Source: Devosia nitrariae
GTDB lineage: Bacteria > Pseudomonadota > Alphaproteobacteria > Rhizobiales > Devosiaceae
Direction of reading: 5' to 3'
Length of the DNA: 64,000 nucleotides
Assembly: GCF_030160115.1 (NCBI RefSeq)
Contig: NZ_BSNS01000007.1
Location: 186,001-250,000 of the forward strand
Of this stretch, positions 6,173 through 41,495 are shown in pieces. The notes beneath the pieces were generated by a model, which did no database searches, had not been told where the DNA came from, and saw only the letters and a program-made list of their open reading frames with translations. A program made the position numbers and the translations under genes. The number at the start of each line of letters is the position of its first letter. Within the stretch, counting starts at the first letter, position 1.

Positions 6173-7945
6173 GTGACCTACGAGCAGATCTTCCTCTTCA
6201 CTCTCCTCGGCCTGGTGTTCGGGCTCCTGGTGTGGGGCCGCATACGCTATGACCTCGTGGCATTCGCCGCCCTGGTGGTGGCTGTCGTCGGCGGCGTCGT
6301 TCCGGCCGAACACGCATTCGAGGGTTTCGGGCATGAGGCCGTGATTATCATTGCCCTGGTGCTGATCGTCTCGCGCGCCATGCTCAATGCCGGCGCAGTG
6401 GAGCTCGTTGCCCGTTTCGTCGTCTCCGCCGACAGGCCGCTCTCCACCCATATCGGCTTCATGTCGGTGGCCGGGGCGGCCATGTCGGCGGTCATTAACA
6501 ATGTGGCAGCACTCGTCATGCTGATGTCGCTGGACATCGAGGCGGCGGAAAAGGCCAAGCGCCCCGTCTCCCGTTCGCTGATGCCGCTGTCCTTCGCGAC
6601 GATCCTCGGCGGCATGATCACCCTGATCGGGACACCGCCCAACATCGTCGTCGCGCAGTTCCGCGAACGCGCGCTCGGCGCCCCCTTTTCAATGTTCGAC
6701 TTTTCGCCGGTCGGGTTGGTGTGCGCCTCCATCGGCATCGCGTTCGTCACCACCATAGGCTGGCGGTTGATCCCCGAGGAGGCAAAGCGCGCAACGGCCG
6801 GCGAGCGCGCCGAGACCGACCTATTCGTTGCGGAGGCGGGCGTCGGCGAAAAATCGAAGAGCATCGGCAAGACGCCTGCCGATCTGTTCCCCGTCGCCGA
6901 AGAGCACGACATCATTATCCTTGGCCTCGTGCGCAACGGCCGGCGCCTGCCGGGCTTTTCGAGGAGCGTCGAAATCCGCCAGGGCGATGCCGTCGTCCTC
7001 GAAGGCGACCCGAAATCCATCGAGGCCTTTATCGGCGCCGCCAGCCTCGACACCATCGACTCCGAGGACCATGGCGGTCTGCGCGGCGAGACGTTGACGC
7101 TGGTGGAGGCGACCGTCCCGCAGAACGCGCGCATGGCCGGACGTACCGCCCAGGGCCTGGGCCTGCTCTACAGGCGCGGCGTGGTCCTGCTCGGCGTGTC
7201 GCGCCAGGGCCGGCGTTTCCGCGAGCGCGTGCGCCGGCTGCCGATCGAGCCCGGCGATGTGGTGCTGCTGCTGGGCCCCGAAAGCCGCGTCAGGGATAGT
7301 GCCGAGTGGCTCGGCGTGCTGCCGCTCGCCGAAAAGAGCCATACCGTCATCCAGCGCAGCAAGGCATTGTTCGCCATCGCCGCCTTCGCCGTCGGCGTAG
7401 GGGCGGCCGTTGCCGGCCTCCTACCGCTGGCGGTTGCGCTTGCCGCGGTGGTCGGCGTCTACGCTCTTTCCGGCATCGTTGGCGGGCGAGAAGTCTACGA
7501 GGCCGTGGAATGGCCGGTCATCGTGCTGCTCGGCTCCCTCATCCCGCTGGGCCTGGCGCTTGAAAGCTCGGGCGGCACGCAACTCATTGCAGAGGGTATC
7601 CTGTCGCTGACCGGATCGTTGCCGATATGGGCGATCCTTGCCCTTCTCATGATCGTCACCATGACCTTGTCCGACTTCCTCAACAATGTGGCGACGGCGC
7701 TGATCGCGGCCCCTGTCGGGCTCTCGATCGCACGGTCCCTCGAGGTGTCGCCCGACCCGTTCCTCATGGCCGTGGCGGTCGCCGCGTCCTGCGCCTTCCT
7801 CACCCCCATCGGCCACAAGAACAACACCATCATCATGGGGCCCGGAGGCTATCGCTTCGGCGACTACTGGCGCATGGGCCTGCCACTCGAAGCCATCATC
7901 ATCGCCGTCGCCGTGCCGGCCATCCTGTTCTTCTGGCCGCTTTAG
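6173..7945 (+). CDS. SLC13-family permease with two RCK_C (TrkA-C) domains
   Basis: An inner-membrane carrier of about 590 residues. The first half and the end are strings of membrane helices typical of the SLC13/DASS fold, including the TPPNIVVAQFR and TPIGHKNNTIIMGPGGYRFGDYWRMG blocks (the repeated ion-binding SNT-like regions). Between them, roughly residues 200-410, lie two RCK_C domains (FRRSVEIRQGDAVVLEG-like and RLPIEPGDVVLLLG). Family members move sulfate or di/tricarboxylates. The GTG at 6173 (MTYEQIFLF) is where homologues start, but no clear ribosome site precedes it; ATGs at 6107 and 6113 in the same frame are alternatives. It converges on the arabinofuranosidase gene, 8 bases away. 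Confidence 0.88.
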   Translation: MTYEQIFLFTLLGLVFGLLVWGRIRYDLVAFAALVVAVVGGVVPAEHAFEGFGHEAVIIIALVLIVSRAMLNAGAVELVARFVVSADRPLSTHIGFMSVAGAAMSAVINNVAALVMLMSLDIEAAEKAKRPVSRSLMPLSFATILGGMITLIGTPPNIVVAQFRERALGAPFSMFDFSPVGLVCASIGIAFVTTIGWRLIPEEAKRATAGERAETDLFVAEAGVGEKSKSIGKTPADLFPVAEEHDIIILGLVRNGRRLPGFSRSVEIRQGDAVVLEGDPKSIEAFIGAASLDTIDSEDHGGLRGETLTLVEATVPQNARMAGRTAQGLGLLYRRGVVLLGVSRQGRRFRERVRRLPIEPGDVVLLLGPESRVRDSAEWLGVLPLAEKSHTVIQRSKALFAIAAFAVGVGAAVAGLLPLAVALAAVVGVYALSGIVGGREVYEAVEWPVIVLLGSLIPLGLALESSGGTQLIAEGILSLTGSLPIWAILALLMIVTMTLSDFLNNVATALIAAPVGLSIARSLEVSPDPFLMAVAVAASCAFLTPIGHKNNTIIMGPGGYRFGDYWRMGLPLEAIIIAVAVPAILFFWPL

Positions 7946-7953
7946 AGCGGCCG

Positions 7954-9423
7954 TCAGGCAGGGATATGCAGCATGCAGAGCGCATGCGGCGGGATCGAGA
8001 AGGCTTCGTCCTTGTCCTGCACAACCGCTCTCCTCGGCGCCACCGCATTCGGCTTTTCGACAGAATTGAAGGCGTCCGCAGAGTTGCCTTCGAGGATATC
8101 GACGGAGAACTCACCTCTGAGGGTTTGCCCATCGAGCATGATCCGGCAATCCGCTTTTGCCGTCGGATCGCGGTTGACGATGGTGACCGTGGTTCCAGCG
8201 CCGTCCTTGCTGACGATTGCGTCGACCCTGGCAACGCTCTTAGCTCCATGCCCGAGCCGCGGCCCCTCCACCCGCGCGTCGATCATCCGTTCGCGGATGT
8301 GATCGACATACATCTTCATCGCGTGGAACGTGGTCCGCCTTACGATGCCGTCCTTGTGGGCATAGAGCGGTCCGCGGGTGTTCACGGTCGGCGCCACATT
8401 GGCCATGGTGACAACGTCTGCGTTGCGCAGGCACGCGTTGAAGAACGAAGCCGAGAACAGCGCGTCCGCCATGGTATAGGTGCTCGGCACGTCGTTGAGG
8501 TCGCGCGCCTTGATCTTGTCGTCGCCCGTTCCGTCCGGATGGTGCCAGCCGCGCAGGTTCCATTCGTCGAAAGCGATCTTGACCTTGCCGGTGAAACCGG
8601 CGGCGCCGATGACGTTACGCGTCTCAGCGATCATCCGGTCGGGAGACTCGCAACTCATGATCGCCGTCATATAGTCGGACGGGTTCTCGACCTGCGAGAG
8701 GTGGTCCCAGTAGCCGTGGATGGAAATGAGATCGAGGTAGCGGCCGGCCGAGCGCAGCAGGCCCATGGTCCACTCGCTGTCGGGAACGGCCGCGGCGGAC
8801 AGGAGGATGTCCTCGTCGACCGCGCGCATCATCTTGGCGGATTCGGCAACATACGGCCCCCATTCGGCGGCCGTCTTGGCGCCGATCTGCCAATCGCCGT
8901 AGCTCTCGTTGCCGATACCCCAGTACCGGACGCCGAAGGGCCGGTCATTGCCGTTTTGCCGCCGCTGGTTGGCATAGCGGGTCTCGTAGCGGCCGTTGCA
9001 ATACTCGACCCAGTTGCTCATTTCCTCGGCGGTGCCGTTGCCGCCATTGGTGCAGATATAGGGCTCGCAGCCGACCTCCCGGCACCAGGCGATGAACTCG
9101 TCGGTGCCGAAGGTATTGGGCTCGGGTACGCGCCAGGCCTTGTTGTAGGAGGGGATGCGGTTGAGGCCGATGGCTTCATACCAGTGATGGTCGGAAACGT
9201 AGTTGCCGCCGGGCCAGCGCATGATCGGCGTCTTGAGCTCGCGCAGCGCCTCGATGACGTCCATGCGGAAACCCCGGTCGTCAGCGAGCTGCGAGCCCGG
9301 CTCGTAGAGCCCACCATAGATCTGGGTATGGAAGTGCTCGATGAAGTGACCGAAGATCATCCGGTCCCACCGCTGGCCGCCGATGCGCGAGTCCGCAACA
9401 ATGCTGGTGATGTCTGAACTCAT
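7954..9423 (-). CDS. abfA: alpha-L-arabinofuranosidase, GH51
   Basis: A 489-residue GH51 enzyme that releases terminal arabinofuranose from arabino-oligosaccharides. The acid/base Glu is in WGIGNESYG (Glu173) and the nucleophile in IAFDEWNLRG (Glu287). The N-terminal GHFIEHFHTQIYGGLY and MRWPGGNYVSDHHWYE blocks are classic for bacterial AbfA. No signal peptide is present, so it works on imported oligosaccharides in the cytoplasm. It appears to stand alone: the neighbours are a convergent transporter and an unrelated DUF302 gene on the same strand behind a strong hairpin. Confidence 0.95.
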   Translation of the reverse strand: MSSDITSIVADSRIGGQRWDRMIFGHFIEHFHTQIYGGLYEPGSQLADDRGFRMDVIEALRELKTPIMRWPGGNYVSDHHWYEAIGLNRIPSYNKAWRVPEPNTFGTDEFIAWCREVGCEPYICTNGGNGTAEEMSNWVEYCNGRYETRYANQRRQNGNDRPFGVRYWGIGNESYGDWQIGAKTAAEWGPYVAESAKMMRAVDEDILLSAAAVPDSEWTMGLLRSAGRYLDLISIHGYWDHLSQVENPSDYMTAIMSCESPDRMIAETRNVIGAAGFTGKVKIAFDEWNLRGWHHPDGTGDDKIKARDLNDVPSTYTMADALFSASFFNACLRNADVVTMANVAPTVNTRGPLYAHKDGIVRRTTFHAMKMYVDHIRERMIDARVEGPRLGHGAKSVARVDAIVSKDGAGTTVTIVNRDPTAKADCRIMLDGQTLRGEFSVDILEGNSADAFNSVEKPNAVAPRRAVVQDKDEAFSIPPHALCMLHIPA

Positions 9424-9582: not shown

Positions 9583-10020
9583 CTATTCGGCCGCTGCCGA
9601 GGTGATCTTATCCAGCGTGCTGGCCATCACCTGCAGCACCGGCGCATCGGCGGGAATGTCCCACTCGGCGAGGATTTCGGCCGGAACTTCATACGCCATC
9701 GCCGTGCCGTTATCGGTGTCGTAGACGAGGATTTTCCCGGGCAGGTCGAGCGCGGCCATCCGGTCCGCGGACAGCGCCTGCGCGCCGATCCTGGGATCAC
9801 CGAAGATGACGAGTTGGATGTCGCCGACATCCTCTCCGATACTTTTGACGCCGCCGCCGAAGTCGACGATGCCGAAAACCCGCGCCCCTTCGGCTTCGAC
9901 CGACGCCTCCAGTCTCTCCACTGTTTCGGAGACGGAACCGGCGGATGGCACGACCACCGGCTCGGCAAATGCGGCCGTCGGTACGCACGCGAGAAGCGCT
10001 GCTTTGAGAATCAGTTTCAT
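9583..10020 (-). CDS. Secreted DUF302 domain-containing protein
   Basis: A 145-residue protein with a clear signal peptide (MKLILKAALLACVPTAAFA, cleavage after AFA) and a DUF302 domain: SVSETVERLEASVEAEGARVFGIVDF, then VIFGDPRIGAQAL and PGKILVYDTDNGTAMAY. DUF302 proteins are periplasmic, of unknown biochemical role, and often linked to redox or envelope stress genes. Its ATG overlaps the stop of the monooxygenase gene as ATGA, so the two are translationally coupled and probably work in the same response. Confidence 0.88.
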   Translation of the reverse strand: MKLILKAALLACVPTAAFAEPVVVPSAGSVSETVERLEASVEAEGARVFGIVDFGGGVKSIGEDVGDIQLVIFGDPRIGAQALSADRMAALDLPGKILVYDTDNGTAMAYEVPAEILAEWDIPADAPVLQVMASTLDKITSAAAE

Positions 10021-11249
10021 GGTCTTTCCTCCTTTGGTTTTGCCGCGGCGATCCAGCCCGCGACCCGGCGTGCGTCGCGCCCGACGCCCGAGACCAGTGT
10101 CGAGGACACCGCGTACTGGAAATGCAGCCCGGCGAAGTAGAGCCCGTCGACGTCGGTTGCTTTGCCGAACCGGTGGCGGGGGGTGCCGTGTTCGTCGAGG
10201 ACCGGCAGGTCGATCCAGTCGAACCCGGAATGGTAACCGGTGCACCAGATCACGCTGGAAAACGTGACCTCTGCACCCCCTTCGGCCACTGCCTTGTCGT
10301 CTGTGATCGCGGTGATCTTGCCGATCCGCCGGACGCCGGCACGCTCCAACTGGCCCGGTCGTGTGCGGATCAGCGGCATGCCGTGCCCGTGCATCTTTGT
10401 GCGGAACTTGCGTCCCATGGGCGTGCGCATCGTCAGCAGGTGATGGAACAACCCGCGGATGACCAGGCGGACCATCACTACGCGTGCAGGAAGGCCGGTT
10501 GGGTTGAACGGGATGTGCCCGACCGCGCGTCCGGAGAGGTAGACCTTGTGCGTCCTGGCAAGATCCATGGCGATCTCGGCGCCCGAATTGCCGGCGCCGA
10601 TCAGCAGCACGGGGCCGTCCGGCAGCTGCGCGGGGTTCCTGTAGTCACGCGAATGCATCTGGAGAACGTTCGCCCCGATATCCTGCGCAAGCTCCGGCAC
10701 GCGCGGCTTCTGATAGCCTGCCGCCGCAACCACCACCTGATCTGCCTGGTAGACACCGTCCGTAGTCTCCACGCGAAAGCGGCCGTTTGCCTTGCTCAGC
10801 TTCTCGACGCGGGCGTTGAGGCGCACCGGCAAGCCGAACTTTTCGGCGTAGCTTTCGAGGTAATCGGCCATCTCGTCTTTGGTCGGAAAAACGTCGCCAT
10901 GCGCCGGGAAGCGGTAGCCGTCGAGCCCATCGAACTTGGCCGGGGTGAAGAGCCTCAGCGAATCCCACCGGTGCCGCCAGACATCGCCAAGTCGCGAGGC
11001 TCCATCCAGGATGACATGGTCGACGCCCCTATGCTTCAGATGGTAGCCGACCGAGAGCCCCGCCTGGCCCGCCCCGATCACCACGACGTCGTGATGCTCA
11101 GGCTCGGCCTTGCCCGATGTCTGCGAAGATGCCGCGGGAAATGCGCCGGGCTGGGTTCGCAGCAGATTGCCCGTCTCCACGAGGTCCGCCGGATGGTGGC
11201 CACTCCGGGCCCTGTCGTCGGCAGATGTGGTCATGCGCGTGCTGGCCAT
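10017..11249 (-). CDS. Flavin-containing monooxygenase / NAD(P)-binding oxidoreductase (CzcO/YuxL-like)
   Basis: A 410-residue FAD-dependent enzyme. The FAD-binding motif GAGQAG is at residues 59-64 after an unusually long, polar N-terminal stretch, and the NAD(P)H site GAGNSG is at 218-223. The ATGYHS-type third motif appears as CTGYHSGFDWIDLP. This is the single-component group B-like monooxygenase branch, acting on an unknown small substrate. GGAGGGAG stands 4 bases before the ATG. It is coupled by ATGA overlap to the secreted DUF302 protein and lies 123 bases downstream of a LuxR-TPR regulator on the same strand, which is the likely controller. Confidence 0.9.
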   Translation of the reverse strand: MASTRMTTSADDRARSGHHPADLVETGNLLRTQPGAFPAASSQTSGKAEPEHHDVVVIGAGQAGLSVGYHLKHRGVDHVILDGASRLGDVWRHRWDSLRLFTPAKFDGLDGYRFPAHGDVFPTKDEMADYLESYAEKFGLPVRLNARVEKLSKANGRFRVETTDGVYQADQVVVAAAGYQKPRVPELAQDIGANVLQMHSRDYRNPAQLPDGPVLLIGAGNSGAEIAMDLARTHKVYLSGRAVGHIPFNPTGLPARVVMVRLVIRGLFHHLLTMRTPMGRKFRTKMHGHGMPLIRTRPGQLERAGVRRIGKITAITDDKAVAEGGAEVTFSSVIWCTGYHSGFDWIDLPVLDEHGTPRHRFGKATDVDGLYFAGLHFQYAVSSTLVSGVGRDARRVAGWIAAAKPKEERP

Positions 11250-11372
11250 GGTCTCCCTCCAGTCTAGTCGTCATTCTGGAGGAGAGCATAGGCAAGCGAC
11301 GGGCAGCCTTCATCGTAAGGACGACCCACGCTGCATATTTTGTGCAATGGGGCGTTTGACCCATTCCGCGCG

Positions 11373-13031
11373 TCAGATCGAGCCGGACTTCAACGCCTTG
11401 GCGACCGCCGCCGCGCGCGAGGGGACACCGAGCTTGCCGAAGATGTTCTCGACATGGCGGTTCACCGTCTTGGAGCTGACCCGGAGCTCCTCGGCAATCT
11501 CGCGGTTCGTGCGGCCATCGGCGACCAGCGACAGCACCTGTCGCTCGCGCGCCGTCAGCTCGTCGTCCCTCGTCGCCTTTGACCCGGGCCGAAGCTCGTG
11601 GATCCGAGCGAGGTCAGGTGCAGCGCCGAGGTCCTCGAAGACTTTCTCGGCCGCATCGAGCTCCCGCTCGGCGTGTTCGAAGTCGCCGAGCTCGGCACAG
11701 CCTCGCGCGATGTCGACGCGCAGGCGAGCCACGAGATAGGGCGCGCCGAACTCGAGCCAATAGCGCAGCGCACGGGTAAGCACCGCTACGGCATCGCCGA
11801 AATTTCCGCGCGCCAGAGCCAGCGCGCCGTGTCCCTGATCGGCAACGCGCGCCAGGATCTCGGTGCCGAAGAGCTCCGCGATGTCCGACAGTTCACCGCA
11901 AAGCCGTTCGGCCGCATCGAGATCACCGCAAGCGATGAAGATCTCGATGCCTGCCGGCAGCAACGCCGTTTTCCGCGGCATGTCGCCGGCCGTTTCCAGG
12001 GCGCGTCGGATCGCAGCGACAGCCTCCTCGTGCCGACCCTGCGCCAGGCGGAGCAGTGCCAGGCCCGGCTGCGGGTCGATACCCATTTCGCCGGCCAGGC
12101 GATACTCGGCATCCGACTTCTCGAACACGCCGCGCAGCCGCAGGATCTCGCCCCGCCGGTAGGCCGCGTTGGCCATGGCGGTCTGTTCGGTCGTGCCGGT
12201 GAGACCCACCCCGGCGTGCTCGGCCTCCGAAAAGGCTTCGCTCCAGTTGCCCTCGAGTTGCAGCACCTCGGCCCGGTGTACCTGGCAGACGCCGTTGAAG
12301 GCTTTGGCCTGGGGATTGCGCCGGCACCAGTCCGTCAGAATCGCGGTCCATTCGCGCGCGCGGACCATTTCGAGCACCCGGCAGCAGGAGGCGACGATCT
12401 CGCAATAGACGACACCGCTCACCACCGGCGAGAGACGCCGACTGCTGGCCAGCAACATGGCCTCGTCGATCGGCACATAGCCCTCGTCGATGCGGCCGAG
12501 GCGGAATAGAAGACCGCCCTTCATGCTGCCGGCGAGGGCAATAAGGTCGGGTTCGTTCTGGGCTTCTCCGAAGGCGATGGCCCTGTCGGCAATCTCGATC
12601 GCCGCTTCATAGGCGCCTTTCCCCCGCAGCATGTACGCCTGGGGCAACAGGAGATAGCCGCGCTGCACGCAATCGGGTGACGTCTGTTCGGCGTGTCTGC
12701 CGGCACGCTGGAGCCATCCGGCCCCCAGCCCGACCTCTCCCGCCTGCATGTTGCGAAGTCCGCACCAGAATGCCGCGCGCGCGCATTCCTCGTGGTTCTC
12801 GTGGGCAGCGTGATACGCGTAGACCCGCTCGAGCGCGGCGAGCATGACGCGATCCTGCGCCGCGATCCCAGCGGCCCAGACCAGTGCCTCAACGTCGTTG
12901 ATCTCGAGCTCGGTTTCGGCATCGGCGCGCAAGAACAGCTCGGTCGCGTCCGCCCATGCACTGCGTCGATAGGCGTCCCGCGCAGCTTGAATTGTTTCAA
13001 GCGGGTCTCGTGACATCTCGTCAGAAAGCAT
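11373..13031 (-). CDS. LuxR-family regulator with TPR-like sensor region
   Basis: A 552-residue regulator: residues 1-480 are helical repeats of TPR type with many Ala-rich helices, and residues 485-548 are a LuxR/GerE helix-turn-helix (LTARERQVLSLVADGRTNREIAEEL, then SSKTVNRHVENIFGKL). There is no receiver domain and no ATPase P-loop. It is a clear paralogue of the regulator at 35038-36711: both share RGYL, TGL/SGVVYC, AREWT and VHRAE blocks in the same order. It is upstream of the monooxygenase gene. The signal it senses is unknown. A second ATG lies 5 codons inside. Confidence 0.9.
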   Translation of the reverse strand: MLSDEMSRDPLETIQAARDAYRRSAWADATELFLRADAETELEINDVEALVWAAGIAAQDRVMLAALERVYAYHAAHENHEECARAAFWCGLRNMQAGEVGLGAGWLQRAGRHAEQTSPDCVQRGYLLLPQAYMLRGKGAYEAAIEIADRAIAFGEAQNEPDLIALAGSMKGGLLFRLGRIDEGYVPIDEAMLLASSRRLSPVVSGVVYCEIVASCCRVLEMVRAREWTAILTDWCRRNPQAKAFNGVCQVHRAEVLQLEGNWSEAFSEAEHAGVGLTGTTEQTAMANAAYRRGEILRLRGVFEKSDAEYRLAGEMGIDPQPGLALLRLAQGRHEEAVAAIRRALETAGDMPRKTALLPAGIEIFIACGDLDAAERLCGELSDIAELFGTEILARVADQGHGALALARGNFGDAVAVLTRALRYWLEFGAPYLVARLRVDIARGCAELGDFEHAERELDAAEKVFEDLGAAPDLARIHELRPGSKATRDDELTARERQVLSLVADGRTNREIAEELRVSSKTVNRHVENIFGKLGVPSRAAAVAKALKSGSI

Positions 13032-13104
13032 ACACCAATGTGCCGGAATAGCGAAAACACGTGGCCTTGCCGGCTCGGCAAATGCCGCGAAGAAAATCCA
13101 CCGG

Positions 13105-31283: not shown

Positions 31284-33359
31284 TCAACGGGACGAGTCGG
31301 CTTCCGCCGCATGCTCGGGTGCCCCCGCCAGCAGCGAGGCTTCGGGCGACTGGATGAGCTGCAGGTACCGGTCGAACTGCACCAGCACGTCGGCAATGAC
31401 CTGGTCCTGCGTCATGCCCATCAGGTCGTAACCGCGGCTGCCGTCGCTGAAGAACGTGCGCGCCTCGAAACGCAGGTCCGCCTGGGCCGCTTCGAGCGCC
31501 GAGAATGCCGGCAGGCGATGAGCGGTCAGTTGCACGCCATATAAGAAATCGCGCACGCCGCTGGCCGGTATCGTGAGCGCGACGGAATGTTCGCCGCCGC
31601 CGTCCGAAACGGTCGCGGCGCGGCCACGCTCCTCCATTTCCCTGGCCACATTCTGGAGAGCCGGTGTTACCACGTCGGCGATATAGCCGATGACCTGCTT
31701 TTCGCCCGGAGCGTTGAGGATCAGCCCGAGCCGGCGTTGCCAGGTCAGTCCGGCGGCGGGATGGGCCGAGGGGGTGCTTGCTCCCTGCCCGACCCGTTGC
31801 TGCGCCAGATCGGACTTCATCCCGGTGAACAGGGACCAGATCAGCACCAGCATGATCAGCGAGAAGGGAAGCGCCGTGGCGATCGTGGCCGACTGCAGCG
31901 CGGCCAAGCCTCCGGCAACGAGCAGCACAGCGGCGATCAGCCCCTCCAGCACGCACCAGAACACCCGCTGGAGCGCGGTCGTTTGCGTTTCCCCGCCCGC
32001 CGCGATGGTATCGACGACAAGGGAGCCGGAATCCGAGGAGGTGATGAAGAATATCGCGACCAGAAGCACGGCCAGTGACGAGGTGAGCGCCGGCAGAGGC
32101 AGATATTGGAAGAACTGGAACAGGGCCACCGAAAGGTCTTCGGAAACGGCGACCGCCAAAGCCCCGTTGGCGACCGTCGTGTCGATATGGATGGCGGTGT
32201 TGCCAAACACAGTCATCCAGAGGAACGTGAACCCTGCCGGGATGAAGAGCACGGCCACGACGAATTCCCGCACCGTCCTGCCACGCGAGATCCGGGCGAT
32301 GAACATGCCGACGAACGGCGACCAGGAGATCCACCAGGCCCAGTAGAAAAGGGTCCACGCGTCGATCCAGGGACGCGGCTCATAGGCGTAGATGTTGAAG
32401 GTGCGCAGCACGATGGTATCGAGATAAAAGCCGATGTTCTGCACCAGGTCGCGCAGGAGCAGGGCCGTCGGGCCGGCCACCAGCACGAAGAGCATGAGCA
32501 GGAGGGCGACCCCGAGGTTGAGTTCGCTGAGGCGTCTTATGCCCTTGTCGACACCGGTGACGACCGAGATCGTGGCGACGGCGGTGATGATTGTGATCAG
32601 CACGATCTGGACGAGCGTGTTGTTGGGAACCTCGAGCAGATAGCTGAGGCCGGCATTGATCTGCAGCACGCCGAAACCAAGCGACGTGGCGATGCCGAAC
32701 AGCGTTCCGCAGATGGCAAAGATATCGACCGCGTGGCCGATCGGCCCGTTGATCCGCTCCTTGAGCAGCGGGTAAAGGCCCGAGCGCACCGTGAGCGGCA
32801 GGTTGTAGCGATAGCCGAAATAGGCGAGCGAGAGTCCCACCACCGCATAGATCGCCCAGGCATGAAAGCCCCAGTGAAAGAAGGTGACGCTCAGCGCCTG
32901 GCGCTGCGCGGCAATGGAGAGAGGCTCGGCCTCGGGAGGGGCGGCAAAATGAGTCATCGGCTCGCCCACGGCGAAGTACATGAGCCCGATCCCCATGCCC
33001 GCGGCAAAGAGCATGGCCACCCAGGACACGTAGCGGAAGTCTGGAGTGGCGTCGTCGGGTCCGAGCTTGAGATTGCCGAAACGGCTTGCGGCAATGAGGA
33101 TGACCGAACCGAGGAAAATCGCCACCGACAGCAGGTACCACCAGCCGAAGGCGCCCAGCACCCAGCCCTGCATGGCGCCGAAGATGGCCTCTGCCTGTCC
33201 GGGGAACACGACGCCAACAGCAACGAAAAGCCCGATGATCGCAACGGAGCCGAAGAAGACTGGCGGGTTGATCACGAAACGGGACATCCGGTCACCAAAA
33301 CTGTCAGCCCCAACGCTGTCCTCGGTTGGGAGAACCGCGAAGGGCGCCTCTGGTTTCAT
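31284..33359 (-). CDS. BCCT family transporter (BetT-like, with long C-terminal domain)
   Basis: A 691-residue sodium- or proton-coupled carrier for betaine, choline or carnitine. Twelve helices fill residues 30-500. The family's signature Trp-rich segment is [20 protein letters not shown], and the Gly-rich helix 3 segment is [19 protein letters not shown]. The C-terminal extension of about 170 residues resembles the osmo-sensing tail of BetT. The betA remnant at 15839 shows that a local choline-oxidation gene has been lost, so betaine uptake may now depend on carriers such as this. It lies 74 bases from an MFS gene upstream on the same strand. Confidence 0.93.
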
Positions 33360-33433
33360 GCCTGACGGTAATCAGCCTGCTCGTGCTCCCGCTGACGCCA
33401 CAGCCGTGGCAAAGAGGCGCCAAACGCCAGACT

Positions 33434-34642
33434 TCACGGCGAAGCGGTCGAACGTCGCAATCTTATCCGACCGAAATTGCCGACACCCATGACCACGCCA
33501 CCAAGGATCGCGATGGCGGCCGCCGCCCACAAGACCTGCCGGTAATCGGAGCCGGCGCTGAGGGTTCCGAAGAGAGCCGCTCCGCCGAGCGTTGCGAGAA
33601 TGGCGATGACGTCCATCAGCGAACTCGAGAGCCCGATGCGCCCCTTGATGGTGTCCTGGACATAGCTGATGTTGATCGAGAGCAGTGCCGATGCCGCCAC
33701 GCCGTTGACCACCTGCAGGATCAGGACATCCATGACGGTGGCCGCGCGCAGCACCAGAAGGATGTAGACGCCCAGCAACGCGGCGGAAAAGGCGATGATC
33801 GCGACCTTGGAGAAGTAACGGCCGACCGCATACCCCCATAGGAGCATGAAAGGTATCTCCGTCAGCGCCGCCGTGCCCGCATAGAGCCCCACGTCGCTGA
33901 TGCTGCCGCCCAGATCGTTGACGATCATCAGGGGCATGGCCAGTTGGACCAGCCGCATGGCGATCATCACGATGAGGATCGCGAGGAGACCGCACAATGT
34001 GCCAGCGTCCAACGTTCGCCCTTGCGTCGGTCCGGCAGCGGATTTGGGCGCGGGGCGCGCTACGCGGGTCGCCGGGTTGCGCATCATCAGGATGAAGATC
34101 GTGCCGATGGCGAGGTAGGCGAGGCACGTGATCAGATAGACATCGAACACCGACGTCAGCGCGGCGATGATGCCCGCGGCTGGAGGCACGACCACCCATG
34201 AAGCCGAAAAGATGGTCCGCATCACCGAGACCATCATATCCGCCCTGCCCGGCGCCCGCTCGCTGTAGAAGGCGCGCACGAACGAAAAGCTCTGCGAGAA
34301 GATGGCGACCGCAAGGGGAATGATGAATACCGTCGCGATCGAAAAGCTCATCTGGTTGCGGAAGAGATAAATAAGCCCGTAGCCGATGACACCCGCAAGG
34401 GACGACACCAGGACCAGGATGCGCCGGTCCGGCACGCGATCCGAGACGTAGCCGATCAGCAGCGAGGTCACCGCTCCCACCGCCGCGCCGGCCGACACCA
34501 GCGCCGCATAGGTCGCGTTGGACATCCCGAGCTTCTCGATGCCCACGATCGCCGCATAGGGCAGAGTGGTCGCGAAGGTCACGCCCGAGAGGAACATGCT
34601 CGTGCCGAGCATCAGCGACAGCGGCGGTATCCTGGTGGCCAT
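33434..34642 (-). CDS. MFS transporter, sugar-efflux (SetA/SotB)-like
   Basis: A 402-residue twelve-helix carrier resembling the SET sugar-efflux branch: an N-terminal helix TSMFLSGVTFATTLPYAAIV, the loop GYVSDRVPDRRILVLVSSLAG and the central NDLGGSISDVGLYAGTAAL. Its C-terminus is short and basic. SET proteins export glucosides or lactose-like sugars; the substrate here is unknown. A 22-base palindrome about 60 bases upstream is a candidate operator. Confidence 0.85.
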   Translation of the reverse strand: MATRIPPLSLMLGTSMFLSGVTFATTLPYAAIVGIEKLGMSNATYAALVSAGAAVGAVTSLLIGYVSDRVPDRRILVLVSSLAGVIGYGLIYLFRNQMSFSIATVFIIPLAVAIFSQSFSFVRAFYSERAPGRADMMVSVMRTIFSASWVVVPPAAGIIAALTSVFDVYLITCLAYLAIGTIFILMMRNPATRVARPAPKSAAGPTQGRTLDAGTLCGLLAILIVMIAMRLVQLAMPLMIVNDLGGSISDVGLYAGTAALTEIPFMLLWGYAVGRYFSKVAIIAFSAALLGVYILLVLRAATVMDVLILQVVNGVAASALLSINISYVQDTIKGRIGLSSSLMDVIAILATLGGAALFGTLSAGSDYRQVLWAAAAIAILGGVVMGVGNFGRIRLRRSTASP

Positions 34643-35037
34643 TGTTCCCCTCCCGGCATTGCCGGAGGATAAGGAAGGCCTCGTCCTCAGCTATCGCCAC
34701 CTGGACTCGGGTACCTGAGTCCATCGACTGTCCGCAATGCGCCGACATCGCGGATCTAGTCGCGGTTTGATGTCTTCGGGCCTCTGAACGGGCTGATCGT
34801 TCTGAATGGGCTTGGCATTGCGGAGAAGGAAGCCGCCGGATACCCACTGGCGCTTCGCAAGCGCGGGCATAATGCCGACGACCGGATTAGGCCGGCATCT
34901 GTCCAGGCTGTTGCCGACCCGAGGGCGCGATCCGGGAAGCCAGACGTCCAACACAACCTGGTCGAGTACGCTGAAAAAGGCAGGATTTGCTGCTAGGCTA
35001 GCTCGTCTCGAACTCCTCTGTCGCCGGAGGGAGGTGG
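34643..35037. other. Divergent intergenic region of about 395 bases
   Basis: No gene is supported here; one open frame crosses into the LuxR gene on the other strand but has no family resemblance. The region carries a 22-base palindrome (listed separately) near the MFS gene and a GGAGGGAGG ribosome site just before the LuxR start at 35038. Confidence 0.55.
34702..34723. promoter_or_regulatory. 22-base palindrome upstream of the SET-like MFS gene
   Basis: TGGACTC (34702-34708) and GAGTCCA (34717-34723) form a perfect 7-base inverted repeat around GGGTACCT, whose centre is itself nearly symmetrical. It lies 60 bases upstream of the transporter start codon, a usual position for an operator. The binding protein is not known. 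Confidence 0.45.
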
Positions 35038-36711
35038 ATGGAAGGCGCTGACGAGCAAAATGCGGACGGATCGGGATCTGCCCTGCACGCCGAGCTGTCG
35101 ATAGGTCGCGATTGCTTTGGGCGTCATGACTGGGCTGACGCATTTGCCGTGTTTTCGCGAATCGACCGGGAGGCGCCACTTTCCGCTGAAGATCTGGAGC
35201 GGCTGGCGATATCCGCGTACCTGACCAATCGAGACGAAGACGCCCTGCGCGCCTTCGACCGCGCCCATCGCGCATACGTCGAGGCCAACGATTGCACGCG
35301 GGCCGTGCGCACGGCGTTCTGGCTCGGTTTCCGCCTTGCCAGCAGAGGACAAACAGGTCCGGCGAGCGGATGGTTCTCCCGGGCAAAGCGCCTGTTGCAG
35401 CGTCACGGGAAAGACTGCGTCGAACGGGGCTATTTGATGATACCGGTCATCGAGGAGAAGCTTGCCGAGGGTGACTTCGACTCAGCTCTGCACGAAGCAA
35501 AAAATGCCGCCGATATCGGTGAGCGGTTTCAGGATGCTGATCTGCTTTCGGTCGCGCTGCATCTCCAGGGGCGCGCACTTCTCCGCAAAGGTTCAGTGGC
35601 GGCGGGTCTCGCCCTTCTCGACGAAGCTATGGTCGCAGTCATCGAGGATGAGCTGTCGCCACTCATGACGGGCCTGATCTATTGCAGCGTCATCGAAGCC
35701 TGCCACGATATCTACGCCTTTGACCGAGCGCGGGAGTGGACATCCGCCCTTGCCGCCTGGTGCAGCAAACAGCCGCAGATCGTTGCATTCACCGGCACCT
35801 GCCTGGTCCATCGCGCGGAGATCATGCAGCTTGCCGGCGCCTGGGGCGATGCAATTGCGGAAGCCGGCCGAGCCTGCGAGCGTTTCCTTGATGGTTTCGA
35901 TCCGCAACCTCCGGCAACGGCGTTTTATCAAAGGGCCGAGATGCATCGCCTCAGGGGCGAGCTGGACGCGGCGGAGGAGGATTATCGCCGCGCCAGCCGG
36001 TTTGGCCACGAACCGCAGCCGGGACTGGCCCTGCTGCGTCTGGCGCAGGGGCGCAAGGACGCGGCAATCGCAGCAATACGACGAGTGATAGGCACCACAA
36101 AGGATCGGCTGCACAGGGCGCGCCTTCTTCCGGCGTATGTCGAGACTGCAATCTCCGTGGGAGAACTCGGCGAGGCCAAACAAGCATGTGGGGAACTGGA
36201 AGAGATCGCAGCAGCTTTCAAATCTACAGTGCTGAGTGCCATGGCCAACCAAGCCCGGGGAGCTCTCGCTCTTGCCAATAGAGACGCCGGCGCGGCTCTC
36301 GTCACGCTGCGCCCTGCATTCGAGGTGTGGAATGCAATCGACGCACCATATGAGGCTGCCCGCATCCGCATCCAGATCGGACTTGCCTGCCGCGCGCAAG
36401 GTGACGGCGACGGTGCCGACTTTGAATTCGCGGCCGCAAAAGCCGGGTTCGATAGACTGGGCGCCTATCCGGACCTCCGCCGCGTCGAGGACCTTATGGC
36501 GAGGCCGCGTGCGGGATTGCACGGCCTGAGTCAGCGCGAGTTGCAGGTTTTGCGGCTAATTGCTACCGGCAAGACAAACAAGGCCATCGCCGATGAGCTT
36601 TTCCTGAGCGAACGCACAATCGAGCGGCATGTGAGCAATATCTTTACAAAACTCGACCTGTCATCGCGCGCGGCAGCCACTGCATGGGCCTACGGGCACC
36701 ACCTCGTCTGA
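35038..36711 (+). CDS. LuxR-family regulator with TPR-like sensor region (paralogue of 11373-13031)
   Basis: A 557-residue regulator. Residues 1-480 are TPR-like helical repeats, and residues 490-550 are the LuxR helix-turn-helix (LSQRELQVLRLIATGKTNKAIADEL, SERTIERHVSNIFTKLDLSSRA). It lacks a receiver or ATPase domain. It aligns along its length with the regulator at 11373-13031, for example DCVERGYLMIP against DCVQRGYLLLP and CLVHRAEIMQL against CQVHRAEVLQL. It is followed after 120 bases by the hydrolase/methyltransferase fusion, its likely target. Confidence 0.9.
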   Translation: MEGADEQNADGSGSALHAELSIGRDCFGRHDWADAFAVFSRIDREAPLSAEDLERLAISAYLTNRDEDALRAFDRAHRAYVEANDCTRAVRTAFWLGFRLASRGQTGPASGWFSRAKRLLQRHGKDCVERGYLMIPVIEEKLAEGDFDSALHEAKNAADIGERFQDADLLSVALHLQGRALLRKGSVAAGLALLDEAMVAVIEDELSPLMTGLIYCSVIEACHDIYAFDRAREWTSALAAWCSKQPQIVAFTGTCLVHRAEIMQLAGAWGDAIAEAGRACERFLDGFDPQPPATAFYQRAEMHRLRGELDAAEEDYRRASRFGHEPQPGLALLRLAQGRKDAAIAAIRRVIGTTKDRLHRARLLPAYVETAISVGELGEAKQACGELEEIAAAFKSTVLSAMANQARGALALANRDAGAALVTLRPAFEVWNAIDAPYEAARIRIQIGLACRAQGDGDGADFEFAAAKAGFDRLGAYPDLRRVEDLMARPRAGLHGLSQRELQVLRLIATGKTNKAIADELFLSERTIERHVSNIFTKLDLSSRAAATAWAYGHHLV

Positions 36712-36831
36712 ACTCCGTTATACGTGGAAACACCCATTGCGCGTTCGCTGCAATTTCCGCGCTTTCCCCGAAGCATGCGGCCACGGTCGGCTCTAGCCTG
36801 CCTCCAGACCATCGAAGGAATGGAGGAGGTC

Positions 36832-38580
36832 ATGAACAAGGCTCGAAGAGTTGAAACCACGAAAGAACAATCCGGACCGGTGATTGGTGCCGAGGAGGCG
36901 CGGCTGCGGCTGTTGACAGATCTTCCCGTTGCCGAGCGGCGCGTGCAACTGGCAGGCATTTCGACCAACGTGTTCGAGGGCGGCATCGGGCCGCCGTTCG
37001 TCCTTCTGCATGGCCCGGGCGAATACGCCGCCAAATGGTTTCGAGTGATCCCCGAGCTCATCAAGACCCACCGGGTCATAGCACCCGACCTTCCGGGTCA
37101 TGGGAAATCCAACGCGATCGACGGGACCGTCGATACGGACCGCGTACTCGCCTGGCTGGGCGAACTGATCGAGCAGACCTGTCAGAGCCCTGCTGTATTG
37201 GTGGGCCAGGTTCTAGGGGGCGCCATCGCCGCGCGCTATGCGGCCGCGGGAGGCGCGGGTCTGCGCTGTCTCGTGCTCTCGGATGCGCTGGGGCTTACGC
37301 CCTTCCAGCCTGCGCCGGAGTTCGGGGAGGCACTCATGACGTTCGCGACAGAGCCGAGCGAGGAGAATCACGATCGGCTCTGGCAACGCTGCGCCTTCGA
37401 TCTGGACAGGCTTCGCACGGACCTGGGCACCACGTGGGACAATTTCAAAGCCTACAATCTGGATCGCGCCCGGACGGCCCCTCTGAAACCCACCCAACAC
37501 GGCCTGATGGAGCAGTTCGGCATTCCAGAGATTGCGCCGGACGATCTCGCTCGTATCGAGGTGCCGACTGTATTGATCTGGGGGCGACATGATCTCGCAA
37601 CCTCGCTGAACGTGGCGGAGAGGGCAAGCGCTCGCCATGGCTGGCCGCTATACGTCATCGAAGACGCCGCGGACGATCCCGCAATCGAGCAGCCTGCTGC
37701 ATTCGTCGAAGCGCTGCGGGAGGCCATCAGCAGGTATGGTGAACCCGCCGCATCCGACATACCGCCGCATACGCGCGAGGCGTGGGATCACATTGCGCCC
37801 GGCTATGACAGGACCAACACTGAAACCCAGATGCAGCTTGCCGGTGAGGCGCTGCTGCGGGCCGAACTACAGTCGGGGATGCGGTTCCTCGACGTTGCTT
37901 GCGGCAGTGGCGCCCTTGCCATCCCCGCCGCGAGGCTTGGCGCAGAAGTGGTCGCTGTCGACCAGTCGCCGGTGATGCTCCAGCTGCTGCAGGATCGCGC
38001 ACGAAAGGATGCACTTGCGATCGACACAAGCGTCATGGACGGCCACGCCCTGCAATTCGAAGCCGAAAGCTTTGACATCGCCGGGTCGCAGTTCGGTGTG
38101 ATGCTATTTCCCGACATGCCCGCAGGCATTCGCGAGATGGCCCGTGTCGTCAAGCCGGGGGGAACCGTTCTGGTCATCACCTATGGCGACCCGCACGAAG
38201 TCGACTTCCTGCGCTTTCTGGTAGGCGCGGTTCAGTCGGTGCGGCCCGGGTTCGAAGGCCCGTCCGTGGCCCCCCCGCCATTGCCGTTCCAGTTGAGCGA
38301 CCCCGAGCGGCTGCGCGCTGAATTGGAAGCCGCCGGTCTCAAGAAGATCCGTGTCGAGACGACCACCGAGCGGACAGCATTCAGTTCAGGAGAGGAACTC
38401 TGGAACTGGATCATTTGGAGCAATCCGATTGTGGAGGAGGTGCTCGGCGAGCTCGGCCTGACCAAATCCGAGCGCGATACGGTTCGCGGCGTGCTGGACG
38501 AAATGGTGCAGGAGCAGACAGACGATAGCGGCCGAGCCTATCTCACCAACCCGGTCAATATCGGTATCGGTAAAAAATGA
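36832..38580 (+). CDS. Degenerate alpha/beta-hydrolase fused to SAM-dependent methyltransferase
   Basis: A 582-residue fusion. Residues 50-300 are an alpha/beta-hydrolase (FVLLHGPGEYAAKWFRVIP, DLPGHGKSN), but the nucleophile elbow G-x-S-x-G reads GQVLG with Val127 in place of Ser, and the catalytic His region reads EDAADDPAIEQP with Asp where GAGH should be. So two of three triad residues are gone. Residues 315-575 are a class I methyltransferase with motif I LDVACGSGAL (352-361), and GHALQFEAESFD then FPDMPAGIREMARVVKPGG. GGAGGAGG before the ATG fixes the start at 36832. The hydrolase part probably binds a ligand; the methyl acceptor is unknown. Confidence 0.9.
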   Translation: MNKARRVETTKEQSGPVIGAEEARLRLLTDLPVAERRVQLAGISTNVFEGGIGPPFVLLHGPGEYAAKWFRVIPELIKTHRVIAPDLPGHGKSNAIDGTVDTDRVLAWLGELIEQTCQSPAVLVGQVLGGAIAARYAAAGGAGLRCLVLSDALGLTPFQPAPEFGEALMTFATEPSEENHDRLWQRCAFDLDRLRTDLGTTWDNFKAYNLDRARTAPLKPTQHGLMEQFGIPEIAPDDLARIEVPTVLIWGRHDLATSLNVAERASARHGWPLYVIEDAADDPAIEQPAAFVEALREAISRYGEPAASDIPPHTREAWDHIAPGYDRTNTETQMQLAGEALLRAELQSGMRFLDVACGSGALAIPAARLGAEVVAVDQSPVMLQLLQDRARKDALAIDTSVMDGHALQFEAESFDIAGSQFGVMLFPDMPAGIREMARVVKPGGTVLVITYGDPHEVDFLRFLVGAVQSVRPGFEGPSVAPPPLPFQLSDPERLRAELEAAGLKKIRVETTTERTAFSSGEELWNWIIWSNPIVEEVLGELGLTKSERDTVRGVLDEMVQEQTDDSGRAYLTNPVNIGIGKK

Positions 38581-38584
38581 GACG

Positions 38585-38869
38585 GTGGTCCGGGTTACAA
38601 GAGAGGCGGTCGCAGCCGCCTCCCCCGAACTCCTCGCCCATATTTTGTCGCAACAGGATATTCCGCCCTCGCACAGCGTCATGGTCGGGGACCGCCGATA
38701 TGACATCTCCAGGGCCCATGCGGTGGGAATACGCGGCCTTGGCGTGCACTGGGATTATGGCGCAAGAGACGAACTCGAGACTGCCGGCGCAGATCAGCTG
38801 GCGGAAGCGACTGCAGACCTCGCCCGCACGGTTCGTTCGATGGTCAGCGGAGAGCTATCTGCGAGCTAG
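38585..38869 (+). pseudogene. HAD-family hydrolase (phosphoglycolate phosphatase-like), C-terminal fragment
   Basis: Ninety-four codons matching only the end of a Gph-like HAD phosphatase: SHSVMVGDRRYDISRAHAVG is motif IV (GD-x-x-x-D) and GVHWDYGARDELETAGAD is the usual C-terminal block. The N-terminal half with the nucleophile D-x-D-x-T and the cap domain is missing, and stop codons close the frame upstream. It starts 4 bases after the fusion gene's stop. It looks like a scar left when the fusion gene's region was rearranged; it should be inactive. Confidence 0.7.
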
Positions 38870-38908
38870 AGGCTGGTTCTGGGCGCGAGCCTGAGGCGTC
38901 CCAGCCGC

Positions 38909-40396
38909 TCAGGATCCTGCGATCTCGTTCCCCAGGCGGACCGTTTCCTCAACGAGCAGAAAGAGATCGTCGCGGTGTGTGCGGTGATTGGTTATGGCGA
39001 CCCGCAGGCAATGCTCGCCATGCACCGTCGTATCCGAAATTGCCGCTGTCCCCTCTTCCTGCAGCCGCAGCATGATTTCCGTATTGATGGCCTTTAGCGC
39101 CTCGGCCTCCACCCCCTTCGCACGATACCGGAAACAGACGATGTTGATCGTTGTGGGGGCCGCGAGCTCCAGAAGGGGCTCGGCCTCGATAAGGGTGGTG
39201 AGGTACCGCGCCTGAGCGATGTTCTGGTCGATGAGGCGGCCGAACTTTTCGGCGCCATGCTCCTTGAGCGCCATCCAGACCTTCAGCGCCCGGAAGCCGC
39301 GTGTGGTCTGCAACCCGTACTCGTGCAGCCACGCTGCCGCGGCGAGGCCGCGCGATGTCGCCTCCAGATATTCGGACGTCACCGCAAAAGCCGCATGATG
39401 GGCAGAGGGGTCGCGGATGAGGGCGCAGCCGACTTCGAAAGGCGCATGCAGCCATTTATGCGGATCGAGCGCCAGGGAATCGGCGCGCCCGATGCCGTCA
39501 ACGCGCAAGGCGTTTTCGGGGGCGATGGCGATCAGCGCGCCTATGCAGCCGTCGACATGGAACCAGATATCCTCTTCAGCTGCCAGATCACCGATCGCTG
39601 AGAGATCATCGATCGCACCAGTGTTCACTGTGCCTGCGTTGGCAATAATACAGGCAGGCAGAAAGCCAGCGGCGCGGTCTTGCGCAATCGCTGCAGCAAG
39701 AGCGGCGACGTCCATTCGAAACCCGGCATCACTCGGGATGCGCCGCAGGGCCCGGTTGCCCAGCCCCAACTCTTCAAGTGCCTTGCGGTGGCAGCTGTGG
39801 ACCTGATCCGAGGCATAGAAGCGCAACGGCTTGTCGATCGCCGCGACGCCATGCTCGCGCACGTCCACGCCAGCCTTTACGTTGCGCGCCACCGTCAGCC
39901 CGATGAGGTTGGCCATGGAGCCGCCGCTGACCAGCGTGCCGCTGGCCGAAGCCGGAAACCCCACCATTTCCTTCAACCAGTTGACCACCTGAGCGTCCAG
40001 CAGGGCGGCGGCATGATTGCCGCCGCCGAGGTTGGATCCCTGGATCGCCGCCAGGAAATCGGCCAGCGCACCGGTAAAGTTGCTGGATCCCATGTACCAC
40101 GACCAGAAACGCGGATGGATGTTGCCCATCGGATAGGACATCACGTTCTCCGTGACTTGCCTGTAGACCTCGCCGAGCGGCGCCGGCGAGCGAGGCAAGG
40201 CGGTATCGAAGAACGTCCTTACCTCAGCCGGCATATCCCGCCACACGGGGCGCTCGCGCACATCGCGCAGAAAGCCGATCGCGTCGTCGACGATGCGGTG
40301 GGAAAGTGCCCCGAGTACGGCCCAATCGGTCGGGTCGAGCGTTTCTTCACCGGTCGCAGCCCCTGGGCGATGCAACGCGTCCATCTCATGCTCCAT
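38909..40396 (-). CDS. Group II pyridoxal-dependent decarboxylase
   Basis: A 495-residue PLP enzyme of the aromatic amino acid / tyrosine / glutamate decarboxylase group. PLP Lys314 is in DPHKWLHAPFEVG, and HVDGC (280-284) holds the Asp that binds the pyridine nitrogen. SGGSMANLIGLTVARN is the phosphate site. It releases CO2 from an amino acid to give an amine, but the substrate cannot be read. An ATG at 40384 has a better ribosome site (GGAG) than that at 40396. It lies 13 bases after a cystathionine-beta-synthase-like gene, so the amine may derive from its product. Confidence 0.92.
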   Translation of the reverse strand: MEHEMDALHRPGAATGEETLDPTDWAVLGALSHRIVDDAIGFLRDVRERPVWRDMPAEVRTFFDTALPRSPAPLGEVYRQVTENVMSYPMGNIHPRFWSWYMGSSNFTGALADFLAAIQGSNLGGGNHAAALLDAQVVNWLKEMVGFPASASGTLVSGGSMANLIGLTVARNVKAGVDVREHGVAAIDKPLRFYASDQVHSCHRKALEELGLGNRALRRIPSDAGFRMDVAALAAAIAQDRAAGFLPACIIANAGTVNTGAIDDLSAIGDLAAEEDIWFHVDGCIGALIAIAPENALRVDGIGRADSLALDPHKWLHAPFEVGCALIRDPSAHHAAFAVTSEYLEATSRGLAAAAWLHEYGLQTTRGFRALKVWMALKEHGAEKFGRLIDQNIAQARYLTTLIEAEPLLELAAPTTINIVCFRYRAKGVEAEALKAINTEIMLRLQEEGTAAISDTTVHGEHCLRVAITNHRTHRDDLFLLVEETVRLGNEIAGS

Positions 40397-40409
40397 TCAA
40401 AGGGCATCG

Positions 40410-41495
40410 TCACGCGACGAACTGGTAGCCGGGCGTCGAGCGCGAAAGAGCGGTCTCCTCCTCGTCCATCTCGGCTTCGATCGTCTCGAAGAGCGGCGTG
40501 GTGATGTAGCGTTCGCCGGTGTCGGGAAGCATGGCGAGGATCACCGATCCGGCGGGTGCGCGTTCGGCGACCTGACGCGCCACGGCGAAGGTCGAGCCGC
40601 CGGAAACGCCGGTGAATATGCCTTCCTTTTGCGCCAGTGCTTTCGCCCACTTGATCCCTTCGGGGCCTGCAACCGGCATCACCTCGTCATAGAAGCGGGA
40701 GTCGACAGCCTCCTGCAGCACGTAGGGAACGAAATCCGGGGTCCAGCCCTGGATGGGGTGCGGCTCGAAGGCGGGATGGCTGGCTGCCGGAGAGTGGTCG
40801 CTTGCACGTTCCTGGGCCTGGCCGCTGCCAATGAGTTGTGCATTGGCGGGTTCGCAGAGCACGATCCGGGTCTCCGGCCGCTCCCGGCGCAAGACCCGCC
40901 CGACGCCGGCAACCGTGCCGCCCGTCCCGTAGCCGGTCACGAACCAGTCGAGCCGCGAACCGGCGAAATCGTTGATGATCTCGCGGGCCGTCGTCGCCTC
41001 ATGGATGTCCGCATTTGCCGCGGTCTCGAACTGGCGGGCGAGGAACCAGCCATTGGCCTCGGCGAGTTCCACCGCTTTCCTGTACATGCCGAAGCCCTTC
41101 TGCGCGCGCGGCGTCAGGACGACCTTGGCCCCGAGCATGCGCATCAGCTTGCGGCGCTCGACCGAGAAGCTGTCGGCCATGGTCACGACCAGAGGGTAGC
41201 CCTTCTGAGCGCACACCATGGCGAGCCCGATCCCGGTATTGCCGCTGGTCGCCTCGACGACCGTCTGGCCCGGCTTCAATGTTCCGCTGCGCTCGGCCTC
41301 CTCGATGATATTGAGCGCCAGCCGGTCCTTGACCGAGGACATCGGGTTGAAGAACTCGGCTTTCACGTAGATCGTCGCGTGATCCACCCCGAGATTGTTG
41401 ATCCGGATCGTCGGGGTGTCCCCGACGGTCTCCAGAATGCTTTCGAAGAGGCGCCCTCGACCGGCCGTCGTTCTGATTGCTGCTTTGTCCAACAT
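40410..41495 (-). CDS. Cysteine synthase / cystathionine beta-synthase-like PLP enzyme
   Basis: A 361-residue fold-type II PLP enzyme. PLP Lys56 is in NPMSSVKDRL, the substrate loop TSGNTG is near 84-89, and the Gly-rich phosphate site GTGGTVAGVGR near 192. It is longer than CysK (about 310 residues), with a tail near residues 235-361 that includes HPIQGWTPDFVPYVLQEAV. It makes a beta-substituted alanine from an activated serine. In one operon with a PLP decarboxylase, it may feed an unusual amino acid into decarboxylation; alternatively it is simply a second cysteine synthase. Confidence 0.9.
   Translation of the reverse strand: MLDKAAIRTTAGRGRLFESILETVGDTPTIRINNLGVDHATIYVKAEFFNPMSSVKDRLALNIIEEAERSGTLKPGQTVVEATSGNTGIGLAMVCAQKGYPLVVTMADSFSVERRKLMRMLGAKVVLTPRAQKGFGMYRKAVELAEANGWFLARQFETAANADIHEATTAREIINDFAGSRLDWFVTGYGTGGTVAGVGRVLRRERPETRIVLCEPANAQLIGSGQAQERASDHSPAASHPAFEPHPIQGWTPDFVPYVLQEAVDSRFYDEVMPVAGPEGIKWAKALAQKEGIFTGVSGGSTFAVARQVAERAPAGSVILAMLPDTGERYITTPLFETIEAEMDEEETALSRSTPGYQFVA

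Follow-up and report, generated by a model that had tools for sequence, protein, structure and literature searches.

The alpha/beta-hydrolase fold is one of the most common among enzymes; to our knowledge, its non-catalytic members have been described mainly in eukaryotes. GID1 and D14 are plant receptors with this fold, and both KAI2 and D14 keep the catalytic triad. METTL14 is a pseudoenzyme activator of a methyltransferase, and BioHC fusions exist. The nearest known layout to the locus described here is that of BioH-BioC and BioG-BioC, in which an alpha/beta-hydrolase and a SAM methyltransferase are encoded by adjacent genes or are fused; a BioG-BioC fusion, active in the synthesis of the biotin precursor, has been proven in Bacteroides fragilis, as described in parts of PMC3494674. 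Both halves of the biotin pair are active, whereas the fusion considered here is without the esterase residues and has a LuxR-TPR regulator as its neighbour. The use of a dead enzyme as partner of a live methyltransferase has a parallel in TbPRMT1 PRO, a methyltransferase without activity of its own which, according to portions of a pseudoenzyme review (PMC10211241), switches on a functional one; the main text of that review contains the word 'hydrolase' 0 times. In that case, however, the dead partner is a paralogous methyltransferase, whereas here it has an unrelated fold. In the plant receptors KAI2 and D14 a hydrolase fold perceives a small molecule (for KAI2, parts of PMC8837635), and no methyltransferase is attached. 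Among the matches listed for the open-licence PMC literature (titles and starts of abstracts), no description of a dead hydrolase fused to a methyltransferase was found, the papers being on biotin, plant receptors, prozymes or unrelated subjects; nor was anything relevant listed for the regulator, for haloarchaea together with rhizobia, or for the names of the relatives.

The fusion lies in a stretch of Devosia nitrariae DNA of 64,000 nucleotides, the whole of which is called the window (Table 1). As the first-pass annotation had claimed, a hydrolase and a methyltransferase are joined in one frame, which starts at an ATG (36832), ends with a TGA (38578-38580) and has both Pfam domains above their cut-offs; the mechanical open frame starts at a GTG (36724) 36 codons before this ATG. 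The first half belongs to the alpha/beta-hydrolase superfamily, with Abhydrolase_1 at residues 54-276 (69.9 bits, cut-off 25.8) and Abhydrolase_6 (60.7 bits, cut-off 26.3), and Methyltransf_11 at residues 353-447 (74.9 bits, cut-off 21.2) marks the second half as a class I SAM methyltransferase. The annotation was also right that this half retains its SAM motif: LDVACGSG is followed by AVDQS, the Asp of which is the acidic residue after strand 2, and DVAxGSG and this Asp are invariant in nine aligned methyltransferase rows (a set that leaves outside the copy from locus L043, which reads GTG).

Table 1. Features of the fusion locus in the window (positions are those of the window).
Feature	Position	Strand	Basis or remark
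3.7-kb stretch with regulator and fusion, 82% to N. luteus contig	34954..38622	.	DNA comparison
LuxR-TPR transcriptional regulator, 557 aa	35038..36711	+	GerE 74.6 bits
Operator-like block between regulator and fusion	36727..36774	+	conserved in 7 aligned loci, pattern matched in eighth (L095)
Ribosome-binding site GGAGGAGG of fusion gene	36822..36829	+	
Fusion gene, pseudo-alpha/beta-hydrolase + SAM methyltransferase, 582 aa + stop	36832..38580	+	ORF + Pfam
Hydrolase half, ~residues 1-300	36832..37731	+	Abhydrolase_1 + alignment of ten copies
Nucleophile elbow GQVLG, residues 125-129, Val127 (37210-37212) replacing Ser	37204..37218	+	alignment
Asp254, triad acid retained, end of WGRHD	37591..37593	+	Asp in 10/10 copies
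AADDP, residues 279-283, Asp281 (37672-37674) replacing catalytic His	37666..37680	+	Asp in 10/10 copies
Linker, ~residues 301-316	37732..37779	+	near apparent methyltransferase-half exchange point in relative L043
Methyltransferase half, ~residues 317-582	37780..38577	+	Pfam, alignment
SAM motif LDVACGSG, residues 353-360	37888-37911	+	sequence

The domain order is that of a BioH-BioC type biotin-precursor protein, but the fusion can hardly be one: membership in the BioH-BioC or BioG-BioC group was rejected because the scores are 52.5 bits against 206.95 for BioH and 40.6 against 184.95 for BioC (NCBIfam), and the esterase residues are lost. In a profile comparison, the solved structures that score best against the hydrolase half include the C-C (meta-cleavage product) hydrolases HsaD (2wud, 5jz9) and 1j1i, with E-values of 6.5e-21 to 1.6e-20. 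Proteins of the HsaD type are Ser-Asp-His enzymes (the 2wud row has Ala at the nucleophile), whereas the residues here are Val, Ile or Leu, then Asp and Asp; the HsaD/BphD-type model NF045632 (NCBIfam) gives 44 bits against a cut-off of 400, which together with the lost triad places the half outside that family. The methyltransferase half has its Rossmann core and SAM motifs in common with small-molecule methyltransferases such as RebM and UbiE/MenG (among solved structures, the best matches are 3bus, which we take to be RebM, and 1xxl), and at 75.2 bits against a cut-off of 158.35 it lies outside the UbiE/MenG subfamily itself (TIGR01934, NCBIfam).

Relatives are few. When genome contigs were scanned with the window protein, two full relatives turned up, along with one partial match to the methyltransferase; the full ones are a fused protein in Nitratireductor luteus (L021, 79%) and, in Mesorhizobium muleiense (L022, 65%), a version in two separate genes that overlap by 4 nt and encode 311 and 277 aa. 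The plasmid collection PLSDB contributed a fused relative on plasmid pA of Sinorhizobium meliloti LMB1 (L029, 66%), five haloarchaeal plasmids, and 12 records with partial methyltransferase matches, and no relative was found in scans of viral contigs. Within the order, 6 of 397 genomes pass 1e-25, with the hydrolase half present only in the window's genome, and at 1e-30 a search of the phylum returned 1 of 398 genomes, the window's own. The N. luteus contig belongs to a genome (G058) whose family is taken to be Rhizobiaceae; the window's genome belongs to a different family within the order. At 1e-30, 4 of 297 genomes of the G058 family match. One of these (G861) was counted as the same as N. 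luteus, and the other three hold fused copies (L042 in G820, L043 in G932) or the hydrolase alone (L044 in G977). A split copy (L095, in G1121) was added by the operator-pattern search described below. In 36 genomes of the window's genus, no part of the window protein has a match better than 7.4e-17. The hydrolase set used here has ten members, namely eight from the window's order, Rhizobiales (window, L021, L022, L029, L042, L043, L044 and L095), and two haloarchaeal ones (L030 and L031); fragments in L032 and L034 were left out. (It should be noted that the hydrolase gene of L031, from Halorussus halophilus, is read here as 7825-8718; its annotated start at 7996 looks late, with homology beginning at 7825.)

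The substitutions in the two catalytic motifs, GQVLG and AADDP, had been proposed from the window protein itself. In an alignment with nine outgroup hydrolases (eight from matches of ~30% identity, comprising 409 records, and one gene neighbouring the L022 copy), Val127 falls under the outgroup nucleophiles, which are Ser in eight and Asp in one, and Asp281 falls under the outgroup His, which is present in 9/9. This agrees with the proposal, and with only the acid Asp254 remaining, two of the three triad residues are indeed lost. Fixation in homologues, the check put forward for both replacements, was found for Asp281, as was the case for Asp254 (both Asp in 10/10 copies), but not for Val127, since this position is Val in two copies, Ile in five and Leu in three. 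None of the ten copies has the nucleophile and His of a catalytic alpha/beta-hydrolase, no relative that has this architecture and an intact Ser-Asp-His triad was found, and decay of the window copy alone is ruled out because the other nine have the same loss. As both positions are non-catalytic in all ten family members, the loss is not a matter of chance. In a tree that included live hydrolases, the nine copies known at that time formed one clade (100/100); L095 joined the set later.

Around these positions nearly all the fold glycines persist. In the HGPGE motif (residues 60-64), Gly61-Pro62-Gly63 is found in all ten copies; of the elbow glycines, Gly129 is present in all ten and Gly125 in nine, with Ala in L022, and Glu64 and Asp282 are each present in nine, L044 deviating at both. 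Mean pairwise identity across the ten copies is 52% in the cap and 64-67% in the core, and at 16 of the 82 cap positions all copies, bacterial and archaeal, have the same residue. Simple Nei-Gojobori pairwise estimates of dN/dS for the hydrolase half are 0.22 (window/L021), 0.19 (L042/L043) and 0.19 (L030/L031), dS being high or saturated in more diverged pairs; the corresponding values in the window/L021 pair are 0.14 for the methyltransferase half and 0.17 for the LuxR-TPR gene. Taken together, the losses shared by ten copies, the retention of nearly all the fold glycines and a dN/dS of ~0.2 in three pairs support the earlier view that selection maintains the half for a function other than hydrolysis, and the dead half appears to be retained for some job other than cutting.

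A methyltransferase accompanies the hydrolase in nine of the ten copies. It is fused in five (window, L021, L029, L042 and L043) and adjacent in four, with the hydrolase gene first in L022 and L095 and the methyltransferase gene first in the haloarchaeal L030 and L031; gene order is thus unlike between bacteria and archaea, and the pair is still together. For the tenth copy, L044, there is no methyltransferase match on its 6,852-base contig. Such linkage would be consistent with the first-pass suggestion that the half may bind a ligand and deliver it to the methyltransferase. The five fused copies group together in two trees (96/92 and 93/94), a grouping that may reflect a single fusion event. 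In two trees of each half, the L043 hydrolase is sister to that of L042 (100/99 and 97/96), and the L043 methyltransferase lies outside the other copies of the order (98/96 and 99/97); forcing the L042 and L043 methyltransferases together was rejected with a p-AU of 0.0141, in a test whose grouping was taken from the hydrolase tree when the methyltransferase tree had already been seen. L042 and L043 are 80-85% identical in residues 41-280, 69% in 281-320 and 45-60% further on, except for 80% at 401-440. From these trees and identities, L043 seems to have swapped its methyltransferase half near the linker, within the same family, and to have kept its hydrolase half; the alternative is fast change rather than exchange. 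An exchange would mean that the hydrolase-methyltransferase pairing is preferred but not clonal.

The haloarchaeal plasmids bear on how strict the pairing is. Of their five methyltransferase loci, two (L030 and L031) have an adjoining intact hydrolase. Beside the intact methyltransferase, L032 carries a hydrolase remnant of 65 aa (80%, at 7842-8036) and L034 one of 43 aa (60%, at 7854-7982), and no family hydrolase was found in the 14.8 kb of L033 that was read. Other annotated alpha/beta-hydrolase genes match the family at only 27-29% (in L030) or have no match to it (in L034). The methyltransferase dN/dS is ~0.17 for L030/L033 and 0.21 for L030/L034, so the methyltransferase is constrained in L033 and L034 and can persist without its hydrolase. 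An obligate hand-over between the halves is therefore unlikely, given three of five haloarchaeal methyltransferase loci without an intact hydrolase, two of them tested and constrained, and the L044 contig without a methyltransferase.

The LuxR-TPR regulator reported just upstream of the fusion is present there, and in all eight hydrolase loci of the bacterial order the hydrolase gene is preceded by a LuxR-TPR gene of the same strand, with 55-84% identity to the window's in six other loci; L042 and L043 have one extra gene between it and the hydrolase gene. In L095 the LuxR-TPR match (6189-7831) is in two frames and the regulator may be frame-shifted, and in L044 (177-2504) the sequence reads as a class III cyclase-like N-terminal stretch in frame with LuxR-TPR (775 aa). 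The regulator is also found at three more loci, to which the operator pattern led and which are without a family hydrolase: with another methyltransferase in L096, with a membrane-protein-like gene and a methyltransferase of the L096 type in L094, and with an FAD-binding protein gene and a two-frame methyltransferase remnant (10065-10290) in L093. These loci indicate that the regulator accompanies methyltransferases more widely than it does the hydrolase. In the haloarchaea a FilR1-type regulator precedes the methyltransferase in 5/5 loci (domains were scanned in L030, of which the others are 81-94% relatives).

Our preference, held at somewhat less than even confidence, is that the dead half serves the methyltransferase as a partner that binds a ligand or regulates, without catalysis of its own. 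On this reading the locus is a cassette of two genes, apparently mobile, with the LuxR-TPR regulator ahead of a small-molecule SAM methyltransferase that carries its pseudo-hydrolase either fused or next to it. The hydrolase pocket would persist, closed by the aliphatic residue, and Asp281 would give it another carboxylate close to Asp254. The substrate, or some ligand like it, would be bound there but left uncut, and binding would raise, gate or make selective the activity of the neighbouring methyltransferase, with the regulator suggesting induction by the methyltransferase substrate or its relatives. The cap is the usual ligand site of alpha/beta-hydrolases, and its lower conservation here counts against ligand binding. 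(Two AlphaFold runs gave mean pLDDT values of 43.0 with 4 alignment rows and 39.9 with 3 rows, too low for the models to be of use.) The replacement of His by one particular residue is, on the other hand, more than simple loss, and Asp281 and Asp254, perhaps with Glu64 or Asp282, could together create a new site, of the acid/base or cation type, for a lyase, isomerase or hydrolase step coupled to the methylation. The fixation of both aspartates and of Gly61-Pro62-Gly63 and the near fixation of Glu64 and Asp282 would suit such a rewired enzyme, but position 127 varies like a packing position, and we know of no alpha/beta-hydrolase that works via such a site, which leaves this explanation unlikely.

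A ligand sensor serving the regulator rather than the methyltransferase would fit the invariable place of the LuxR-TPR gene upstream of the bacterial copies, the L044 contig with regulator and hydrolase and no methyltransferase, and the existence of hydrolase-fold receptors such as KAI2 in plants; it is nevertheless rather improbable, because the same regulator family precedes L093, L094 and L096 without a family hydrolase, the haloarchaeal copies have an unrelated regulator, and the partner chosen for fusion is the methyltransferase. Conserved fold glycines beside a position 127 that drifts among aliphatic residues, and a cap less conserved than the core, might instead be expected of a mere scaffold, which binds nothing and serves the solubility, oligomerisation or localisation of the methyltransferase. 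Against it are the fixation of Asp281, Asp being unusual at that place, and the cap positions that are invariant from bacteria to archaea, and we regard a scaffold as improbable too, although rewired enzyme, sensor and scaffold are all three to be taken seriously as rivals. Ordinary decay, with the half a pseudoenzyme on its way out, would fit the haloarchaeal remnants in L032 and L034 and the failure to find the hydrolase in L033, but it is very improbable in view of ten open frames with the same two changed positions, in bacteria and archaea, and the low dN/dS of three pairs. A more far-reaching version of the partner role, possible and on the whole doubtful, is that of a dedicated pseudo-hydrolase family in which the change from His to a fixed Asp made a new ligand or cation site, and which as a module has passed between rhizobia-like bacteria and the plasmids of haloarchaea, swapping methyltransferase halves at the linker, so that the add-on would set the target of the methyltransferase. 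What is found is a prokaryotic clade, common to two domains, of which no copy seen here retains either residue and which is nearly always tied to one methyltransferase. It offers a compact system in which to see how a hydrolase pocket gets reused and how a dead domain can alter its partner enzyme, with natural fused, split, apparently swapped and hydrolase-free versions as ready comparisons.

The case for the operator-like block between regulator and fusion comes from its conservation between loci; it directly follows the 3' end of the LuxR-TPR gene in the seven loci aligned, L042 and L043 among them. In L042 the block contains a 9-nt inverted repeat, GCATGGGTG-N4-CACCCATGC, and in L043 an 8-nt version of it; in the window's copy of the block the repeat is degenerate, and none of this kind was found. 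A looser pattern applied to the window alone was not significant (0.18 matches expected; a match in 14 of 100 shuffles). The operator pattern has one exact match in the window's genome and matches in 65 of 394 genomes, against 24 of 394 for a reversed-pattern control, which makes it too noisy as a regulon finder; four new matches, chosen for likeness to the second half of the block, all lie beside a LuxR-TPR gene.

When positions 33001-41000 of the window were compared with the 90-kb N. luteus contig, the only matches fell within the 3.7-kb stretch of Table 1, and regulator and fusion would thus move together as a cassette that is apparently mobile. Four further pieces, in other parts of the window, also match the N. 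luteus contig, and two of them make up a second LuxR-TPR cassette. This cassette (9584-13056) consists of a LuxR-TPR gene (11373-13031, 41% to the first) and a neighbour resembling FAD-dependent oxidoreductases, and is 79-81% identical to the same fusion-bearing contig. Downstream of the fusion, at 38909-41495, are convergent genes for a PLP-dependent decarboxylase (Pyridoxal_deC) and a PALP-family enzyme, both of which lie outside the stretch common with N. luteus.
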